Positions 16,325 through 36,980 of a stretch of DNA of 37,428 nt are shown piece by piece. The notes beneath the pieces were generated by a model that was given only the letters and a program-made list of their open reading frames with translations, did no database searches and was not told where the DNA came from. A program made the translations under genes and the position numbers. The stretch lies in NCBI GenBank assembly GCA_025782395.1, contig JALGZD010000109.1, positions 1 through 37,428 of the forward strand, written 5' to 3'. Numbering within the stretch: the stretch's first letter is position 1; every line of letters begins with the position of its first letter. This stretch comes from a bacterium. GTDB lineage: Bacteria; Joyebacterota; Joyebacteria; Joyebacterales; Joyebacteraceae.

Positions 16325-18802
16325 TCAGGGCCTCGCCATTCGGGCGGGGCCCTTCCTACTTCGGGAAGCGAACTCTTGCTTGAGGAGTGTTGGGAGAGGG
16401 ATGAGCAAGGCGAGAAGAGCGAACGAGTTCAGCACCCCAAGAGCCTTCATTGCTTCTTGGAGTCCCATGACGGGTAGCAGGAAAACGGCGGCGGCTGTCG
16501 CTCCGAGTGCCGCTCCGAACAGGTCGGCTGCGTAGAGGCGGCCTCCTGTCACGCGGATAGACCCGGCTCCCGGGCGGCCCGGGGAGCGTCGTGACGCATA
16601 AATGGCAGCCGCCATGGGGAACTGCGCACCCGCAAGAAGGGCGGAGGCAACGACCACGATGGGGAAGAAGGCCGCCCAGTCCACAAGGCTTTCGGGTGGA
16701 AGCTCGGATATCGCGCGCACGGCGCTGGCGAAGAGCAGAGGGAGGAAGCATATCCCAGCTTGGAGAACGACGAAGGGAGAGAGGTCCGTGCGCCGTCGAG
16801 CCATGCGGGAACCGGCCCACCCGCCCGTTGCGAGTCCTCCCATGAACGCGGCTGTGATCAGTGCGAGATCCCTGTAGACATAGCCGTAGAGGCTTTGAAA
16901 CGCGATAATCGCGCCGATCTCCAGGCTCATCTCAGTGAACCCGACAACGATGATCGCGAGCACGACGGCGGACCTGAATGCGATCCACGCGAGGTCGTCC
17001 GCCTGGTCGCCGGCTGTTGCCGCACGGGTGAAACGGCGCCGGCGGAGCCGGACGAGTGCTGCCGGGGCCAGAGTAAGTGCAAGAGCCAGTGCGCCCACGG
17101 CGAACGCGTTCTTCAGCGTGAACACGGCGGCGGCCGAGGAGAAGATCCTAGGAGTGGAGCCGAAGTGGCGATTCCACAGGACGAGGGAAAGCAGGTAGCC
17201 GGCTGGTGCGAGATCGTGATTGATCGGAGCATCCGCTCTCTGGACGGCATCCTCGAGCGAGGCGATCCGCTCCGGGCGCAGCCTGTCCCGCAGGTAGTAG
17301 TCGCGGAAATGCACGACGTCGAGTCGGCGTTCATCGACCCGCCGTGATATTTCCACGGCATCCCTTGTGATGAGATTGCCATCCATCGTGGCCAGAATGT
17401 GGCACGGGTCGCCGGGAAAGAGCACCACGCTGTCGAAGACCTCGGACATCGTGCGCCTCACGCACTCGAGGAAGCGTGCCAGCTCGTCGCCGACGTAGTT
17501 CTCCGAGGACGTCGCGGAGATGGCCACAAGACCGCCCGGAGACAGCGCGACTGAGACTTCCCGGAAGAACTCCTCGGTATAGAAGCGATTCAGGAAAGCG
17601 GTCGTAGGGTCAGGCACGTTGACGATAACGACGTCGTAGGTTCCGGAAGAAAGCTGTTTCACGAACAGGCGTGCGTCCGTGAAGACGGTCGAAACCCTGG
17701 TGTCATTGAGCCCGGTGGTAAGAGCGCGCCCGTCTACCGCAATCGCTTCCCGTATGAGGTGCGGATCCAGTTCGACGTAGTCCAGAGTGAGAACCGCCGG
17801 GTGCTTGAGTATCTCCGCGATAGAACCACCCAACCCTCCTCCCAGGAGAAGAACGGAGCGGGGAGATGGATGCTCGATCATCGCCAGGTGGACCGCCTCC
17901 TCCGCAGCAAGTCTGTTGGGAGAGGACGCGACGAGCAAGCCGTTCTCGTAGATGCTGCTTTGGGTTCCTGTACGCGTAGTCACGATGCGACCGTAGATGG
18001 AGTCGCTCGTGGTTACGAACCCGAGTTCCCTCCACTGCGCGGCCACGGTCGCGCGATCCAGTCTACCGCCGGGCCCGGCGAGGGCGAGAGCAGAGAGAAC
18101 AAGAACAACAACAGGGGCCACCATTTCGCGGAGTCGCGGTCGCGATACGCCGGTCAAGACGAGGGAAAGGCCGGCCAGAGAGCAGAGGAGTCCGGAAAGG
18201 AGTGCGATGTTCAGTGTATCGACGCTGCGAAGCAGGATGAAGCTCAGGAGTGCACCGGCGACCAGAGCTCCCAGTGCCTCGTAGATGTAAACGTCGCCTA
18301 CCAACTCGGCCGCGAGGAATGCGCTTCCGAGACAATCGCGGCGGGCCGGAGCACGCTCGCGGGATGCTACCGCCGCCGACAGGGCGAACATGAAGCCCGA
18401 AAGAAGTGTGAAGGGCGCGACGGAGACAATCGCACCGAGAACGAGCGGCTGGAGCCCCGTGAGCTCTCCGGGTGCGATGCCGACGAGTCGACCTCCCATT
18501 CTCGAGAGCAGGATGGCTACAGGGGAGAGAACCGCCAACATTGCGAAGGCAGCAGCCAGTGTCCCTCGGCCGGCACGATCGAGACCGGGCATGCGGCTCG
18601 CGATGGCGCTTCCTGCGGCGGCCGAGATCAGCCATGTGGACAGGGTGATGCCGAACGACATCTCGTTCCCGCGCCACGCGACCATAAGTTCACGAAGGAG
18701 CAGTGCCTGGATCGTGAGCGTGGCGAAGCCCAGAACGGCGAACGCCAGTCGTGGAACAAGCGTGCGGCTCGATGGCATTGAGTGTTCTCGACGTGGTATC
18801 AT
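16325..18802 (-). CDS. Membrane-embedded spermidine synthase-like protein (fused transporter-type TM domain and SAM-methyltransferase fold)
   Basis: An 825-residue polytopic protein. About seven hydrophobic helices (residues 15-250) precede a soluble spermidine-synthase-like Rossmann domain (about 265-510), and several more helices (about 585-810) follow. The soluble part shows YGRIVTT, then SVLLLGGGLGG with the SAM/dcSAM glycine loop, VELDPHLI, FTDARLFV and YDVVIVNVPDP. Such fused proteins are frequent in environmental bacteria, but their aminopropyl donor or acceptor activity is unproven. No SpeD-type decarboxylase is in the window, so polyamine synthesis is only a family-based guess. The start at 18802 has no good ribosome site; ATG 18778 is an alternative. 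It is the only long minus-strand chromosomal gene here. Confidence 0.82.
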   Translation of the reverse strand: MIPRREHSMPSSRTLVPRLAFAVLGFATLTIQALLLRELMVAWRGNEMSFGITLSTWLISAAAGSAIASRMPGLDRAGRGTLAAAFAMLAVLSPVAILLSRMGGRLVGIAPGELTGLQPLVLGAIVSVAPFTLLSGFMFALSAAVASRERAPARRDCLGSAFLAAELVGDVYIYEALGALVAGALLSFILLRSVDTLNIALLSGLLCSLAGLSLVLTGVSRPRLREMVAPVVVLVLSALALAGPGGRLDRATVAAQWRELGFVTTSDSIYGRIVTTRTGTQSSIYENGLLVASSPNRLAAEEAVHLAMIEHPSPRSVLLLGGGLGGSIAEILKHPAVLTLDYVELDPHLIREAIAVDGRALTTGLNDTRVSTVFTDARLFVKQLSSGTYDVVIVNVPDPTTAFLNRFYTEEFFREVSVALSPGGLVAISATSSENYVGDELARFLECVRRTMSEVFDSVVLFPGDPCHILATMDGNLITRDAVEISRRVDERRLDVVHFRDYYLRDRLRPERIASLEDAVQRADAPINHDLAPAGYLLSLVLWNRHFGSTPRIFSSAAAVFTLKNAFAVGALALALTLAPAALVRLRRRRFTRAATAGDQADDLAWIAFRSAVVLAIIVVGFTEMSLEIGAIIAFQSLYGYVYRDLALITAAFMGGLATGGWAGSRMARRRTDLSPFVVLQAGICFLPLLFASAVRAISELPPESLVDWAAFFPIVVVASALLAGAQFPMAAAIYASRRSPGRPGAGSIRVTGGRLYAADLFGAALGATAAAVFLLPVMGLQEAMKALGVLNSFALLALLIPLPTLLKQEFASRSRKGPARMARP
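16328..16354. terminator. Hairpin terminator between convergent genes
   Basis: A ten-base-pair stem (16328-16337 with 16343-16352, one G-U pair) closes a five-base loop, then TTCCT. It lies 30 nt after the beta-helix stop and overlaps the last codons of the convergent spermidine-synthase-like gene. It best serves the plus strand, as the T run is poor in both directions. Confidence 0.55.
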
Positions 18803-30030: not shown

Positions 30031-30604
30031 AGGACTCGCGGTGTTTCTCGACAGAGACGGTGTGTTGACCGTTGAACGGAGCTACATCACTCGTCCGGGT
30101 GAGCTCGAGCTCTTACCGGGGGCTGCGCGCGCGGTCGGAGCCTTGAACAACGCAGGTGTTCGGGCCGTCGTAGTCAGCAACCAGTCCGCCGTCGCCAGGG
30201 GACTCATGACCGAGGAAGAGCTGGCGGCCGTCCACGGTCATCTCGAGGAACTTCTTGAAGAAGAAGGAGTGTTTCTCGATGCTGCGTACTACTGCCCCAA
30301 TCTTTTTGGGGCCCGTGTGGCGCGGTTCGCGCGCGACGATTCCTGCAGGAAACCGCGCACCGGGATGCTCGAACAAGCGGCCCGCGATCTCGGGATCGAC
30401 CTCGCAGCTTCCTACATGATAGGAGACCAGATGACGGACATCGAACTCGCGAGAGGCGCCGGACTGACTGCCGTACTCGTGCTGACAGGAAAGGGCCATG
30501 AGACCCAGGCGGTTCTCAGCGAGCGAGGACTTGAGATCGACCATGTCGCTGTCGAGATCGGCGCGGCTGTTTCGTGGATACTCAACCACATGGAGAAGCG
30601 ATGA
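30020..30604 (+). CDS. gmhB: GmhB-like HAD phosphatase (heptose-1,7-bisphosphate 7-phosphatase), altered zinc site
   Basis: A 194-residue histidinol-phosphatase-type HAD enzyme. GmhB dephosphorylates heptose 1,7-bisphosphate on the way to ADP-heptose, the donor for the GT9 enzymes beside it. D11 and D13 (FLDRDGV) are the nucleophile pair; VVSNQSAVARG, CRKPRTGM and IGDQMTDIELA complete the fold. Numbering is collinear with E. coli GmhB around the zinc loop. Of its four ligands C92 and C109 are kept, while H94 is Asn and C107 is Asp, so zinc binding is doubtful. ATG 30020 is chosen for the GGGGGAGG 7 nt upstream; the frame is open back to 29879 inside the ligase gene. Confidence 0.82.
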   Translation: MSREGLAVFLDRDGVLTVERSYITRPGELELLPGAARAVGALNNAGVRAVVVSNQSAVARGLMTEEELAAVHGHLEELLEEEGVFLDAAYYCPNLFGARVARFARDDSCRKPRTGMLEQAARDLGIDLAASYMIGDQMTDIELARGAGLTAVLVLTGKGHETQAVLSERGLEIDHVAVEIGAAVSWILNHMEKR

Positions 30605-31494
30605 CAGGGCGGGAACACGGACGGGCTGCGGTCGTCACGCGGGCTTCCCTTGTCACGAGGGCGGCAGCCTCCGAGTGGCCTGCGCTCCCCGTGCTCGTGG
30701 CGCTGATCGCCACGCTCGCCGTGCTGTTCGCGCCGCTGCCGGTCATCGGAGCCCTCGACGATAGCGTGGTGCCCGTGGCGCTTGTGGCGGACGGCGAGCC
30801 GACGACGCCTCCGTTCGGCGTAGGGGAGCGGCTGATCTTCGATGTCAAATACGGTTTCGTGTCCGCCGGGACGGCCGTATTGAGCATCCCGGAGATGACA
30901 TGGCACCGCGGTCACCTGTGCTACCAGATCCTCTCCATCGCGGAGTCGAACGCGTTCATATCCGCCTTCTTTCCTGTCAGAGACGTTGCGGAATCGCTGC
31001 TCGACGCGCGCGAGATGGTATCCAGAAGGTTTGAAAAGCGTCTCAGAGAAGGCAACTTCCGCGCCCACGATCTGGTAGTGTTCGATCACGACCGGCACAT
31101 CGCCATCTATCCGAAAAAGGGACGCGTTGTACCGCTTGCGCTCAACGCACAGGACATACTATCGTCGCTCTACTATGTGAGAATGATGAGACTCGAGGTC
31201 GGGAGTTCCGTGTCGATCGAGAACCACGCCGACAAGAAGAACTATCCACTGGAGATCAAGGTGCTCCGCCGCGAGCGGGTAAAGGTCCCGGCTGGGGAGT
31301 TCGACTGCATCGTCGTCGAGCCCGTGATGCGGACGGGTGGACTCTTCAGTCAGAAGGGAAGGCTATGGGTCTGGATGACCGACGATGACACTCATATGCC
31401 GGTGCTCATGAAAAGCAAGATCGCCATTGGTTCCATATCGACTGTTCTCAAAAGCTACGAGCGCGCGGAGCACATCCGATTGCAGTTTCCCTAA
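30601..31494 (+). CDS. DUF3108 domain protein, exported or membrane-anchored
   Basis: A 297-residue protein of unknown function. After a charged leader, residues about 28-50 are hydrophobic and act as a signal or anchor. The DUF3108 domain follows: GVGERLIFDVKYGFVSAGTAVLSI, SRRFEKRLREGNF, LNAQDILSSLYYVRMM and VKVPAGEFDCIVVEPV. The fold is a beta-rich one thought to sit in the periplasm. Its place at the end of an LPS operon hints at an envelope role, but no activity is known. ATG 30601 overlaps the gmhB stop (ATGA); GTG or ATG codons farther upstream lie in gmhB. Confidence 0.82.
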   Translation: MTGREHGRAAVVTRASLVTRAAASEWPALPVLVALIATLAVLFAPLPVIGALDDSVVPVALVADGEPTTPPFGVGERLIFDVKYGFVSAGTAVLSIPEMTWHRGHLCYQILSIAESNAFISAFFPVRDVAESLLDAREMVSRRFEKRLREGNFRAHDLVVFDHDRHIAIYPKKGRVVPLALNAQDILSSLYYVRMMRLEVGSSVSIENHADKKNYPLEIKVLRRERVKVPAGEFDCIVVEPVMRTGGLFSQKGRLWVWMTDDDTHMPVLMKSKIAIGSISTVLKSYERAEHIRLQFP

Positions 31495-31503
31495 GGAGGT
31501 CGC

Positions 31504-32466
31504 ATGTCATCACGCTTTCAGGAAATTGATCTTTCGAAGCTCACCAGGGTTCCGATCGAGAAACGCGGTGGCACGGTCAACGTAGACAGCTTCGTGAGTC
31601 CTGTCGAACCCGGTCGGGAGATCGACGGTCTTCTCTCGATGATACCTGGGACCTTTGCGGGCGCCGATTTCAAGAAGGCGGTGGCCGCCGTCGCTTCCTC
31701 GGGGCTCGCGGGAAGACCTGGATTGGCGATGTTCGGGGCGCACTTCATCAAGTGTGGGCTGAGTCGTCTCCTGATCGATCTCATGGAACGCGGCATCGTG
31801 ACGGCCGTTGCGATGAACGGAGCTTGCGCCATTCACGATTACGAGATTGCGATGTGGGGTGTGACGTCGGAGGACGTTGCGGGGAGACTGGAGGATGGGA
31901 GCTTCGGCATGTGCTCGGATACCGCGGACGGTATCAACGGTGCGATAGTGGAGGGAGCGAAGCGGGGAGCCGGTTTCGGAGAGAGCATAGGAGAGCGGAT
32001 CGTCGGCGATCGGGCCCCGCATCTCGACGCCAGTATACTCGGCCGCGCGTCCGAGCTCGGGATACCCGCGACCGTGCACGTCGGTCTGGGAACCGACATC
32101 GTTCACCAGCACGCGTCTGCGGACGGCGCAGCGATCGGAGAGACAAGCCTCCGGGATTTCCGGATCGTGACGCGTGTGGTCGGAGGGTTGGAGGAGGGGT
32201 GCGTTCTCAATATCGGCTCCGCAGTCATTCTGCCGGAGGTGTTTCTGAAGGCGTTCTCAGTAGCCCGGAATCTTGGATTCGTGAGGGGGGCACTGACTAC
32301 GATCTCGATGGACATGAACGAGCCGTACAGGGTGCTCACCAATGTCATCAGGAGGCCGACAGCTCATCGAGGCACAGGGATTGCGCTTAGAGGTCGCCAT
32401 GAGCTTCTTTTCCCGCTTTTCTGGGCGGCCGTGATCCGGGGTATGCAGCGAGGTAGGACGCGATAG
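31504..32466 (+). CDS. Deoxyhypusine synthase-like family protein, catalytic lysine absent
   Basis: A 320-residue protein whose layout follows deoxyhypusine synthase. Residues 78-116 (GAHFIKCGLS...LIDLMERGIVTAVAMNG...IHDYEIA) align with the enzyme's N-SSGLR-x-II-x-LV-x8-TTGG-x-x-x-D block. EDGSFGM follows, and the C-terminal ELLFPLF (300-306) aligns with SLVFPLL. True deoxyhypusine synthase attacks with a lysine in WGKI just before that C-terminal block; here the segment is RRPTAHRGTG without lysine. Bacteria lack eIF5A, so the substrate must differ; these bacterial homologues have no proven role as far as I know. TAAGGAGGT gives an ideal ribosome site 5 nt before ATG 31504. A nine-base gap follows the DUF3108 gene. 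Confidence 0.65.
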   Translation: MSSRFQEIDLSKLTRVPIEKRGGTVNVDSFVSPVEPGREIDGLLSMIPGTFAGADFKKAVAAVASSGLAGRPGLAMFGAHFIKCGLSRLLIDLMERGIVTAVAMNGACAIHDYEIAMWGVTSEDVAGRLEDGSFGMCSDTADGINGAIVEGAKRGAGFGESIGERIVGDRAPHLDASILGRASELGIPATVHVGLGTDIVHQHASADGAAIGETSLRDFRIVTRVVGGLEEGCVLNIGSAVILPEVFLKAFSVARNLGFVRGALTTISMDMNEPYRVLTNVIRRPTAHRGTGIALRGRHELLFPLFWAAVIRGMQRGRTR

Positions 32467-32476
32467 CTAATAGATG

Positions 32477-32505
32477 TTGACATCAGACAAAGCTTGTGAT
32501 AGACT
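32477..32505 (+). promoter_or_regulatory. Strong sigma-70-type promoter before the structured RNA
   Basis: TTGACA at 32477-32482, a 17-bp spacer, TAGACT at 32500-32505. The -35 is perfect and the -10 matches four of six consensus bases. It begins 10 nt after the deoxyhypusine-synthase-like stop, and transcription would start near 32512. Confidence 0.65.
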
Positions 32506-32511
32506 AGCATT

Positions 32512-32740
32512 GATCGTCAGTAGAGAAGAAGAGCCGGCTTCAAGCGCGAAAGGACTCGCATCGCACCATTGCTAAGGGCTTTTTCTCACGTCTGACAGTG
32601 CACTAAGTAAGGTGCCGAGGCACGCTGCCCGCAAAGAGCGCGGGTGTTGTCGCTGCTGTCGGATGGGACTCGCCCTTGGCTGACGAAGAACCTAACGAAT
32701 CACGGCCGGGTGTGTCCCAGCGAGACACCCGGCTTTTCTT
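32512..32740 (+). ncRNA. Candidate structured non-coding RNA or leader RNA
   Basis: The 374-bp gap 32467-32840 has no gene but has a promoter, folded elements and an intrinsic terminator, so an RNA of about 230 nt is expected. Possible long-range stems are CGTCAG (32515-32520) with CTGACG (32680-32685), and GCTAAGGGC (32571-32579) with GCCCTTGGC (32672-32680, one G-U pair); both claim base 32680, so one stem is a pair shorter. Local hairpins are GTGC-CGAG-GCAC (32612-32623) and CCCGC with GCGGG (32628-32644). I could not match it to 6S, tmRNA, RNase P, SRP or the riboswitch classes I know. It may act alone or as a leader controlling the exopolysaccharide gene at 32841. No open frame of note lies in it. 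Confidence 0.5.
32705..32740 (+). terminator. Rho-independent terminator
   Basis: GCCGGGTGT (32705-32713) pairs perfectly with ACACCCGGC (32725-32733) around an 11-base loop and is followed by TTTTCTT. It would end the RNA started at about 32512. It lies 100 nt before the sugar transferase start, so it could also work as an attenuator. Confidence 0.85.
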
Positions 32741-32840
32741 GTGTGCGGGCCTTGATTGAGGCGCAATCCGGGCGAAGCAGGGACGATGGGAAGGCCGGCG
32801 GAGACAGATAGAGACGTGCTCGCATGACAGGAGTGGGGCT

Positions 32841-33533
32841 TTGTACTTCGTCGATGAACGATTCGGATACGGAACGATCGAAGAGCTCACGCGGGGCGAT
32901 GTCGAGCGGGACAGCCTTGTGCGCGGCGAGTTCTACAGACGGTTCGTGAAGCGGCCTTTCGATGTGATCGTAAGTCTTGTCGGCCTTATTCTGCTCTCAC
33001 CTCTCTTTCTGGTGATCTCCCTTCTGATCAAGCTTGACTCGCGCGGTCCCGTGCTTTTCAGCCAGTCGCGCGTAGGGAAGGATGGCCGGGAGTTCGCGTT
33101 CCACAAGTTCAGGTCCATGGTGATTGATGCCGAGGCGCAGAAACACACTCTCATGCACCTCAACGAACTCGACGGTCCGGTTTTCAAGATCAGCGAGGAT
33201 CCGCGCATAACACGCATCGGTCGCCTCCTGAGGAAGACCAGTTTTGACGAGTTCCCACAACTGATCAATATCCTCAGGGGTGACATGAGCCTCGTCGGTC
33301 CGCGTCCTCCGCTTCCCGGCGAAGTTGAGAAGTACGAAGGCTGGCAGCGTGAGAAGCTATCGGTGCTACCCGGGATCACGTGTCTCTGGCAGATCAGTGG
33401 GAGGAACCACATCGGGTTCACGGAGTGGATGAGGCTGGACATCGACTACATCCGACGGCAGTCCCTGGCGATGGATCTGAGGATTCTTGCCAGAACGTTG
33501 CCGGCGGTGCTCATGAGAAAGGGAGCGTACTAG
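32841..33533 (+). CDS. Initiating sugar-phosphate transferase (polyprenyl glycosylphosphotransferase)
   Basis: A 230-residue PF02397-type enzyme that moves a sugar-1-phosphate from UDP-sugar to undecaprenyl phosphate to start a polysaccharide repeat unit. It has one membrane (re-entrant) helix in KRPFDVIVSLVGLILLSPLFLVISLLIK. GPVLFSQSRVGKDGREFAFHKFRSM, then DPRITRIGRLLRKTSFDEFPQLINILRGDMSLVGPRPP and LPGITCLWQISGRN follow. It lacks the N-terminal four-helix/CoA-binding-like part of WcaJ or WbaP, so it is the small monotopic form. The start is TTG 32841 with AGGAG 7 nt upstream; no ATG in this frame lies near. The sugar is not predictable. Confidence 0.9.
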   Translation: MYFVDERFGYGTIEELTRGDVERDSLVRGEFYRRFVKRPFDVIVSLVGLILLSPLFLVISLLIKLDSRGPVLFSQSRVGKDGREFAFHKFRSMVIDAEAQKHTLMHLNELDGPVFKISEDPRITRIGRLLRKTSFDEFPQLINILRGDMSLVGPRPPLPGEVEKYEGWQREKLSVLPGITCLWQISGRNHIGFTEWMRLDIDYIRRQSLAMDLRILARTLPAVLMRKGAY

Positions 33534-33751: not shown

Positions 33752-35329
33752 ATGGTGGGTCGAAGAACAGACAGAATCGGGAAGCGCTCGGGCTCGGGTT
33801 CGGCGTTTCTCCCTCTTGCTGCCGTTGTCACGCTCGGCGGGCTCATGCGTTTCTATGGAATAGGCGCGCAGAGCCTCTGGGTGGATGAGCTCTGGAGCAT
33901 CAAGGCCTCATGCATCGGGGGAGGACTCTCCCCGGTCGCTGTCTTCGGCAACATGCAGGGGCCCGCGCATGCTGTCCTCGTGCATGCCGTGGCGCATCTG
34001 TCCGACAGTGAGACCGTGCTGCGCAGCATCTCCGCCCTCTTCGGAACGGCAACAATCGCGGTCATCTACGCTCTGGCCAACGATCTCTTCGATAGAAGGA
34101 CCGCCCTTCTGGCCGCGCTTCTGACAGCGGTCTCGCCGTTTCTGATCTGGTATTCGCAGGAACTCCGCAACTACTCGATGGTGATCTTCTTCGCGGCTCT
34201 GTCGACACTGGTGACCTGGCGCCTGGTCGAGCGCAAGAGCGCCTCGTGGCGTACGTTCGTGCTCGCCACGGTGTTGGGGCTCCTGTCGAATCTCTCCGCC
34301 GTTTTCCTGGCTCTTGGGCACTGGGTCTTCGCGGTTCCCAGGCTTGTCAAGGACCGTGCATTCCGAGTGAGGTGGATTCTGGCCTTCGGGGTCGTGCTGG
34401 TACTCGTTTCTCCCTGGATCTGGGGACTCGCCGGCTGGGCGAAGACGGATCGCGTTGGGGAACGGATAGGCATTGTCTCCAGGCGGGACACCTCGGAGCT
34501 TCTGAGGGGAGAGACGACATTCACCCCGATGGCGATACCGTATTCCTTCTACGTCATGGTCTTCGGCTACTCGCTAGGGCCATCGAGTGTCGAACTGCAC
34601 ACAACCCCGCCGGCGTCGGCGTTTATGAAACATGCGGCGTACGTGGGCCCCGCTGCTCTCGTACTTGCTCTGGTGGTTTTTCTGGGGCTCCGGAGCTTCT
34701 CCGAGTCGCGAGCGCGACTCCGTCTGCTCCTCCCGACGGTTCTCGTGCCCGTTGTCGGAACATCAGTGCTTGCGATTCTGAACGTGAAGGTGTTCAATCC
34801 GCGCTACATTGCGGTGGCGCTCCCGCTGATCCTTGTTCTCATCGCGGCGGGGGCGACCCGGCTGAGGGGATTGCCCGGCACAGTGATGGCGGGTCTCCTG
34901 ATCGTCCTGAGCTGCTGGTCCGCAGGCAATTACTACTGGTGCCCCACCTACTGGCGCGAGGATGTGAGAAGTGCTGTTCAGTACATCAAGGAGCGGGAGA
35001 CCGCCGGGGACGTTGTCCTCGTGCCTGTTGTGACGGATGTTTTCGATCACTACTATGAAGGTGAACAAGAGCGCTTCCTTCTCTACCCGGGCCAGGCCGG
35101 GAGTGACGCCGAAGTTGCGGAGCGTGTGACCTCCGGTGTGGCCGGGCATCAGAGACTCTGGTTCGTGAGTTCGAGGTCGTGGCATGTCGACCCCGAGGGG
35201 CGGATCCCGGCGTCTCTTGACAGTCGGTACGATTTGCTCGATTCGGCTCATTTTCCGGGCGTTGAGGTGAGCCTCTATCGCCTGGGCGAAGGAACAGTGC
35301 TCTCAGCGCCAGAGCAGGCGCGGAGATGA
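33752..35329 (+). CDS. PMT/ArnT-like (GT39/GT83-type) membrane glycosyltransferase
   Basis: A 525-residue polytopic GT-C protein with about ten to twelve helices. The first periplasmic loop has SLWVDELWS, the acidic DE motif that serves catalysis in dolichyl/undecaprenyl-phosphate-sugar dependent transferases. SPFLIWYSQELRNYS and, late, NPRYIAVALPLILVL (the conserved RY block) support the family. It would add a single sugar to a glycan or lipid on the periplasmic side using a lipid-phosphate donor. The acceptor is unknown, but the exopolysaccharide setting suggests decoration of that polymer. ATG 33752 has no strong ribosome site. It has its own promoter. Confidence 0.8.
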   Translation: MVGRRTDRIGKRSGSGSAFLPLAAVVTLGGLMRFYGIGAQSLWVDELWSIKASCIGGGLSPVAVFGNMQGPAHAVLVHAVAHLSDSETVLRSISALFGTATIAVIYALANDLFDRRTALLAALLTAVSPFLIWYSQELRNYSMVIFFAALSTLVTWRLVERKSASWRTFVLATVLGLLSNLSAVFLALGHWVFAVPRLVKDRAFRVRWILAFGVVLVLVSPWIWGLAGWAKTDRVGERIGIVSRRDTSELLRGETTFTPMAIPYSFYVMVFGYSLGPSSVELHTTPPASAFMKHAAYVGPAALVLALVVFLGLRSFSESRARLRLLLPTVLVPVVGTSVLAILNVKVFNPRYIAVALPLILVLIAAGATRLRGLPGTVMAGLLIVLSCWSAGNYYWCPTYWREDVRSAVQYIKERETAGDVVLVPVVTDVFDHYYEGEQERFLLYPGQAGSDAEVAERVTSGVAGHQRLWFVSSRSWHVDPEGRIPASLDSRYDLLDSAHFPGVEVSLYRLGEGTVLSAPEQARR

Positions 35330-35348
35330 AGGAGAACGGCCGTAACCG

Positions 35349-35364
35349 TGGCACGAGTTATGCT
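35349..35364 (+). promoter_or_regulatory. Possible sigma-54 (-24/-12) promoter of the export genes
   Basis: TGGCACGAGTTATGCT lies 71 nt before the export lipoprotein start. The GG and GC pairs have the exact 12-base spacing required by RpoN. One base departs from the consensus TTGC (here ATGC). A start near 35375 fits a 60-nt leader. No activator binding site could be recognised by eye. Confidence 0.4.
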
Positions 35365-35434
35365 TTAAGACCTGTCGAGTCGGAGTCCGGTGAGGGGCTT
35401 GACTGCATACAGGTGCGTCAGGGGGATTGACTCT

Positions 35435-36217
35435 ATGCTGTCCAGGAAGGGAAGACTGCTGATGGTGTTTCTGGGCGCCGCTCTGATATCGTGCGCCCAG
35501 GGTTGTGGTACGGCGCGCACGGACACCGGGGCGCCCGATGCGGCTCCATCTTCTGTGAGGACGGCGTCATCTTTGCCCGACGCGGGTCCGGCCGGGACTG
35601 ACGCCGGCGAGTACAGGCTGAGGAGCGGTGACCGGATCGACGTGGACTTCCTGGTCGACGACACGTTGGATTTCAGTACGCCGGTGACCCCGAGCGGAAC
35701 GGTGAGCGTACCGCTGGCTGGGGAGATTGTGGCGGCAGGGAAGACGACAGGTGAGCTTGCCACGGCAGTCGAGGAAGCCATAGGCGGATATCTCCTGGAT
35801 CCGACAGTGACGATTGTCATCGCGGGGATCGCGAAGCAGCCGATCTTCGTGATCGGCGAGGTTGACAAACCCGGGCGCATCGAGGCGACGGGTGATCTGA
35901 CCGTATCAGGCGCACTGGCCGTGGCGGGCGGACTCCTGCCCTCGGGGAAACCAAGCAGCGTGATGGTGATCCGGACTACCGGAGTCGAGGAGCCGACCGC
36001 GATCCGCGTGGATGTGACGAAGATCCTGACCGGACGCGATTTCTCGGAGGACATCGTTCTCGTTCCGAACGATGTAGTATATGTTCCGAAGTCAGTGATC
36101 GGGAAGATCAACGAATTCGTGGATCTCTTCTTCGACAACATCGCTCCTGCCCAGCTGTTCTACCTGCGGGGCTACGATATGGCGCACCGTGGGGACGACG
36201 GGCGAGTCTGGTACTAG
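35435..36217 (+). CDS. Polysaccharide export lipoprotein (Wza/OPX family)
   Basis: A 260-residue outer membrane polysaccharide export protein that would form, as a ring, the exit channel for the exopolysaccharide. The lipoprotein signal is clear: a basic start, a hydrophobic stretch and the lipobox LISC with Cys20. The PES domain starts at YRLRSGDRIDVDFL and includes TPSGTVSVPLAGEI and LLDPTVTIVI. A SLBB domain follows (PIFVIGEVDKPGRIEATGDLTVSGALAVAGGL). The protein ends soon after VYVPKSVIGKINEFVDLFFDNI, the usual short membrane helix region. AGGGGGA lies 8 nt before ATG 35435; an upstream in-frame start at 35390 is less likely. Confidence 0.9.
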   Translation: MLSRKGRLLMVFLGAALISCAQGCGTARTDTGAPDAAPSSVRTASSLPDAGPAGTDAGEYRLRSGDRIDVDFLVDDTLDFSTPVTPSGTVSVPLAGEIVAAGKTTGELATAVEEAIGGYLLDPTVTIVIAGIAKQPIFVIGEVDKPGRIEATGDLTVSGALAVAGGLLPSGKPSSVMVIRTTGVEEPTAIRVDVTKILTGRDFSEDIVLVPNDVVYVPKSVIGKINEFVDLFFDNIAPAQLFYLRGYDMAHRGDDGRVWY

Positions 36218-36251
36218 CTTGCCGCCGCGGCGTTTGAGGAAGGATACCGGC

Positions 36252-36980
36252 TTGGAAGCCAGCAACCGGGGAGTGCAGGACACATCGCTTTTGCGCGACG
36301 TCGTGTACGTCATGTTCAAGAGGAAGACCGTGCTGATCACGCTTGCCGTGGTCGGAGCGGCCATCATGATATACGGTCTCAAGACGAATGTGCCGAGCTA
36401 CGAGGCGTCGGCGCGCGTACTGATAAAGCGTCAGCACCAGGGATACGTCATGCCCTCGGAAACACGCGCTGTGCTCAAGCGTGCCGAGGTCATCAACTCC
36501 GAGATATCGATAATCACCAGCACGGCTGTTGCCGAGGCCGTGGTAGACAGGCTTGAGCTCGCGACGGGGGATGGTCGGCCGCTGGCCGTCTATCGCATGT
36601 CGAAGATGATCAAGGCGCAGGAGCAGCCGGAGTCTGATATCATAGACATCTCGTTCCGTCACAGAGATCCCAGGATGGCGGCCGATGTCGTGAATGCCGC
36701 TCTCGATGCCTACCTTGAGATCAGAAAAGCCGTCGCACTCAACTACGATGCGGTCATCTATCTGGATGAGCAGGCGGAGAGGGTTCGGGCCAAGCGTGAC
36801 TCGACCGCCGTAGCGATAGCGCGTTTCAGTGGAGAGAGGGGCGAGCTCGTGCACGGGCGTCGTGCCGAGCAGCGAATGGGGCTCCAGAACCGTTTCAGCA
36901 ATGAGCTCGCGACCTTGAACTCACACATTCAGTCGTTTGAGGAGAAGCTGGCCCGAGCGGTGAGATCTACGATATGGTGA
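36252..36980 (+). CDS. Wzz/GumC-type chain-length determinant, N-terminal fragment (frameshifted)
   Basis: This inner membrane co-polymerase sets polysaccharide chain length and couples to the Wza-like channel. The fragment has a first membrane helix (VLITLAVVGAAIMIYGL) and the Wzz beta/alpha part (YEASARVLIKRQ, SEISIITSTAVAEAVVDRL, DIIDISFRHRDPRMAADVVNAALDAYLEIRKA). The coiled-coil region then begins. At about 36960 the frame is lost and stops after RSTIW at 36980, while the coiled coil continues in another frame. One missing base would restore it. TTG 36252 has GAGGAAGGA 7 nt upstream; GTG 36189, overlapping the export gene, is the alternative start. Confidence 0.8.
   Translation: MEASNRGVQDTSLLRDVVYVMFKRKTVLITLAVVGAAIMIYGLKTNVPSYEASARVLIKRQHQGYVMPSETRAVLKRAEVINSEISIITSTAVAEAVVDRLELATGDGRPLAVYRMSKMIKAQEQPESDIIDISFRHRDPRMAADVVNAALDAYLEIRKAVALNYDAVIYLDEQAERVRAKRDSTAVAIARFSGERGELVHGRRAEQRMGLQNRFSNELATLNSHIQSFEEKLARAVRSTIW

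Follow-up and report, generated by a model that had tools for sequence, protein, structure and literature searches.

A candidate attenuator-like leader RNA upstream of the exopolysaccharide operon of Candidatus Effluviviacota

Does the gene-free stretch that precedes an exopolysaccharide (EPS) operon encode a free-standing small RNA, or is it the leader of the operon behind it, sensing a signal and allowing read-through? Both possibilities were raised by a sequence-only reading of the window, i.e., the whole 37,428-nt stretch of DNA analysed here. Comparison with related genomes indicates that the locus most likely represents a new, phylum-restricted family of cis-regulatory RNA upstream of the EPS operon, with a presumed attenuator-like action. 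The host phylum, Candidatus Effluviviacota, was named recently; it belongs to the global seep microbiome and was described from metagenome-assembled genomes (MAGs; PMC11323493). The relatives' records that bear titles are also MAGs, and a text search of PMC11323493 returned nothing on riboswitches or exopolysaccharide.

The locus and its distribution

The first gene of the EPS operon (32841–33533, forward strand, TTG start) encodes an EPS-initiating sugar transferase (Bac_transf, PF02397, E 2.1e-66; TIGR03025-like). It is followed in the window by further operon genes on the same strand (33752–36980), with domain matches to PMT_2, Poly_export (Wza-like) and Wzz; in two relatives examined, the operon runs on with genes for an AAA ATPase and a protein resembling Wzy, and in one of them with glycosyltransferase genes. 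On the other side, a conserved neighbour, a gene of the GSU2086 family (31504–32466, forward strand; NCBIfam NF052581, E 3.9e-109), stops 11 nt short of the leader promoter's -35 hexamer and is read in the same direction. ORF inspection and comparison across relatives revealed no conserved gene within the leader stretch, in agreement with its initial description as gene-free. Two further observations concern the surroundings. In the window, as in most genomes of the phylum, genes for a DUF3108 and a GSU2086-family protein stand next to each other (30574–32466, forward strand), with a glycosyltransferase cluster on one side and the EPS operon on the other. At 16325–18802 on the reverse strand lies a gene for an 825-amino-acid protein whose only assigned part, a match to a spermine/spermidine synthase domain, covers about 130 central residues.

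The promoter proposed by the sequence-only reading spans 32477–32505 on the forward strand and comprises TTGACA (32477–32482), a 17-nt spacer and TAGACT (32500–32505) with an extended -10 TG, giving 10 of 12 consensus matches. It is the sole match in the 1.5 kb scanned, where 0.4 would be expected, and it is kept in all 19 RNA-bearing genomes in the form TTGACA-N17/18-TGTGATA[CG]A[AC]T. The transcript is predicted to start near 32510, so that the structured leader RNA, about 230 nt long, would extend over 32510–32740 (forward strand), up to the end of an intrinsic terminator. The latter (32705–32740, forward strand) consists of the hairpin GCCGGGUGUG / ACACCCGGC (stem 32705–32733, folding energy -22.4 kcal/mol) and a U-rich tail, TTTTCTT in the DNA, and its stem shows 100% of cells paired in the 19-genome alignment. 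The promoter and the terminator of the initial description are confirmed. A strict terminator scan passed over the terminator, probably because of its interrupted loop, and one genome has only a poor U-tract.

BLASTN detected the region in 19 of the 20 genomes of the phylum, including all 13 that are at least 90% complete, and a covariance model (R1) matched these 19 as well, once in each except G014, where it matched twice. Outside the phylum, none of 366 genomes contained the RNA under stricter filters, and the plasmid collection searched gave no match to the region. The exact core pattern described below was found at 17 loci of a species-genome collection, apparently within phylum genomes already identified. 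In every RNA-bearing genome (19/19) the RNA directly adjoins the sugar transferase gene on its upstream side; the 20th genome, which is 73% complete, lacks both, the nearest thing to the gene there being a relative with 43% identity. Across the 20 genomes, the RNA and the gene are therefore either both present or both absent. G014, a 57%-complete MAG, carries two copies of the RNA with the sugar transferase gene, on contigs C291 and C330; the C291 copy, on a short contig, is probably contamination, as it is nearly identical to the copy of another genus (G012). Conservation, named at the outset as bearing on function, is the strong evidence for the RNA; the window's own folding energy is only mildly unusual (z -1.96).

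The fold was initially said to resemble no known RNA class, and the database searches agree with this. At the gathering threshold of Rfam 15 no family matches the region; a permissive search gave only two chance microRNA matches in the window region and, in the 18 relatives, one chance match that lies outside the RNA. 6S RNA (RF00013) was considered and rejected, with no match at the locus in a search of 13 phylum genomes. The same search revealed no convincing 6S RNA in the phylum. Weak sub-threshold matches of about 100 nt to the 6S model occur in several phylum genomes (e.g., on contig C19 of G007 and contig C2 of G005) and may correspond to another rod-shaped RNA, such as SRP RNA.

A conserved core, stem P1 and an alternative pairing with the terminator

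Conservation within the RNA is mosaic. A 33-nt block composed of the core and the 5' strand of stem P1 shows 86% identity between genera, followed by the P1 3' strand (81%) and the terminator (75%), whereas the 5' segment, the inner domain and the linker reach only 39%, 43% and 26%, respectively. The core itself, CGAAAGGACUCGCAUCGC (32547–32564, forward strand), is near-invariant in the alignment and reads CGAAAGGACUCRCAUAGC in most relatives. The inner domain is variable in sequence yet folds stably in all 19 genomes (mean z -2.1). No pairing partner of the core common to the genomes was found among the inner, linker and terminator segments, and a pseudoknot with any of them was rejected for this reason. 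A 5' stem formed by GAG and the CUC of the core is seen on alignment inspection in several lineages, inconsistently across them, and was also rejected. The genomes hold no consistent further copies of the core and no consistent complementary targets, the sole extra being a site with one mismatch in G016. The core, which lies next to P1, is the likely site at which a signal would be read.

Stem P1 is formed by GCUAAGGGC (32571–32579) and GCCCUUGGC (32672–32680), both on the forward strand, the latter being the putative switching strand. Its nine pairs show 98.8% of cells paired in the 19 genomes. Together with a three-pair extension and the terminator, 98.5% of cells are paired, in comparison to 34–52% in slid controls, and five pairs are changed on both sides. 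In 500 shuffles, neither the observed proportion of cells paired nor the covariation score was ever reached; the shuffles ignore relatedness, so this result counts as support and not as a p-value. P1 is one of two long-range stems drawn from the sequence at first. The other, an outer stem between 32515 and 32685, has six pairs in the window, four to five in the same genus and one to four elsewhere, so it is not conserved and has been dropped. Inside P1, stem P2 connects GUCUGACA (32590–32597) with UGUCGGAU (32657–32664), also on the forward strand, and carries a compensatory change from G-C to A-U between near relatives within the window's genus. RNAalifold applied to the whole alignment returned only P1, the three-pair extension and the terminator, since the inner domain aligns poorly by sequence.

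The P1 3' strand, RCCCUUGGC, is complementary not only to the P1 5' strand but also to the 5' arm of the terminator, GCC-GGGYG (32705–32712, forward strand), with a UU bulge. Every one of the 19 genomes can form this second, antiterminator pairing (-12.2 to -21.0 kcal/mol), which shows 95.9% of cells paired, as opposed to at most 43% when the strands are slid against each other. The most variable of its complete pairs is A-U in 10 genomes, G-U in six and G-C in three, with no mismatch. Matched strands beat permuted ones, 54 of 2000 permutations being as good; the covariation comes mostly from one column pair, and the shuffles again ignore relatedness. In 14 of the 19 genomes, the terminator arm has no equally good partner elsewhere in the leader. 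The arm is not a generic terminator sequence, as the window shows no enrichment of GCCGGGYG (seven found versus 5.8 expected). A conserved alternative pairing that excludes the terminator, as an attenuator would need, is thus present in 19/19 genomes, although energetically it comes second to P1 in 17 of them: before the terminator is complete, P1 is favoured in 17/19 genomes by 0.1–11 kcal/mol. Unaided folding hence predicts termination, and in the energy model expression would require that P1 be opened by a factor or through kinetic effects.

A cis-acting leader and its rivals

The distance between the terminator and the gene bears directly on the question of leader versus small RNA. In 16 of the 19 genomes only 26–43 nt separate the terminator end from the start codon; the gap is 97–99 nt in the three others, which belong to the window's genus and include the window itself. 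The initial remark had placed the RNA end 100 nt before the EPS-initiating enzyme (terminator to 32740, gene from 32841). No promoter was found in this gap, the best candidates giving 5–7 of 12 matches versus 10–11 of 12 for the leader promoter. With a short gap free of a promoter, the operon seems to depend on read-through. The locus therefore has the layout of an attenuator, namely a promoter-proximal structured RNA with a terminator just before the gene and a promoter-free gap behind it. Constant position alone would be weak evidence, as synteny among the phylum genomes also takes in the upstream genes. Conservation, position, P1, the terminator, the alternative pairing and the promoter-free gap are nevertheless all apparent from the genomes themselves, and on these grounds we regard the RNA as probably the EPS operon's own 5' leader, a cis-acting transcription attenuator with a riboswitch-like layout.

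What follows, namely transcription itself, the switch, its direction and the ligand, is inferred. Transcription would begin at the strong leader promoter, and the conserved core and P1 would form first. A closed P1 would let the terminator behind it fold, and the operon would stay silent. If nothing keeps P1 closed, the P1 3' strand could instead pair with the terminator 5' arm, the terminator could not form, and RNA polymerase would read into the sugar transferase gene. The signal would be read at the core beside P1, most probably from a small molecule and less probably from a protein.

Three other explanations have to be weighed against the cis-acting leader. The RNA could be a free-standing, trans-acting small RNA that merely happens to lie upstream of the EPS operon, with the terminator as its 3' end. 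Its own strong promoter and terminator and its single copy per genome would suit such a role, and a terminated leader could act in trans too. However, this reading does not fit with a next gene that starts 26–43 nt past the terminator without a promoter in 16/19 genomes, or with an RNA that is never seen apart from the sugar transferase gene; nor is a second or complementary site for the core consistently present across the genomes. Hfq was also absent from all 20 phylum genomes (controls positive), which bears on Hfq-dependent small RNAs only. We therefore consider a free-standing small RNA improbable. Of the two options put forward by the sequence-only reading, the read-through leader is clearly favoured by the promoter-free gap, the co-occurrence with the gene and the alternative pairing in 19/19 genomes.

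Processive antitermination, in which the RNA would modify RNA polymerase to pass both the adjacent terminator and distant ones in the EPS operon, appears about equally improbable. EAR acts in this manner in the Bacillus subtilis eps operon, where it antiterminates several distal terminators (PMC7858274); the class of target is identical, and the EPS operon downstream of our RNA is long as well. The epsC RNA/EAR (RF01735; PMC2864571, PMC7858274) and the leader share a structured RNA, an EPS operon and terminator passage, but the leader matches the former neither in sequence nor in structure, the Rfam epsC model giving no match, and epsC is confined to Bacillales. Processive antitermination would also leave the conserved local antiterminator pairing unexplained. 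Moreover, each of the 13 phylum genomes searched has at most one NusG and hence no NusG paralogue of the RfaH/LoaP type, and an RfaH/LoaP-dependent leader was rejected on the same basis. The last explanation, a plain operon-end terminator with a constitutive promoter, would make EPS expression a matter of constant, unregulated leakage. Although the upstream gene runs on the same strand and ends so close to the -35 hexamer, and although P1 plus terminator is the default folding, leakage accounts neither for a near-invariant core (86% versus 26–43% for the 5' segment, inner domain and linker) nor for the conserved alternative pairing, and we judge it very unlikely.

Candidate signals and relation to known systems

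The search for what might control the cis-acting leader proceeded largely by elimination. The hairpin GCGA-AAGGAC-UCGC, present in some genera, is suggestive of CsrA binding, but CsrA was found in none of the 20 phylum genomes (controls positive) and a CsrA-binding leader was rejected. A leader-peptide attenuator was rejected as well, since no reading frame with a start is common to the 19 genomes. With CsrA, Hfq, a NusG paralogue, a leader ORF and a partner or second site of the core all not found, direct sensing of a ligand or the action of some other protein remains. Each genome of the phylum encodes three to seven GGDEF domains, which makes c-di-GMP a reasonable candidate signal. It is conceivable, if somewhat short of an even chance in our estimate, that the leader represents a riboswitch class that is new and restricted to Ca. 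Effluviviacota, and that it gates the whole EPS operon by sensing a second messenger or a metabolite related to EPS (e.g., c-di-GMP or a nucleotide sugar).

Transcriptional OFF riboswitches follow a terminator/anti-terminator model (PMC7266159). The leader resembles them in its core beside a stem, its adjacent terminator and a strand common to the stem and to the pairing that excludes the terminator; it differs in matching no known class and in the strength of its P1, for which the energy model gives closure as the default. A c-di-GMP riboswitch would make plausible biology, given GGDEF domains and an EPS target, but the leader matches no Rfam model. The wcaG RNA motif (RF01761; PMC2864571) likewise lies upstream of EPS genes and is a candidate for cis regulation; the leader gives no match to it, and wcaG comes from marine metagenomes and cyanophages (PMC2864571).

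The leader would be a family of cis-regulatory RNA found in a single phylum, and it adds to the orphan riboswitch candidates one whose target operon is clear. It offers a defined handle on the possible control of matrix or capsule in these bacteria.
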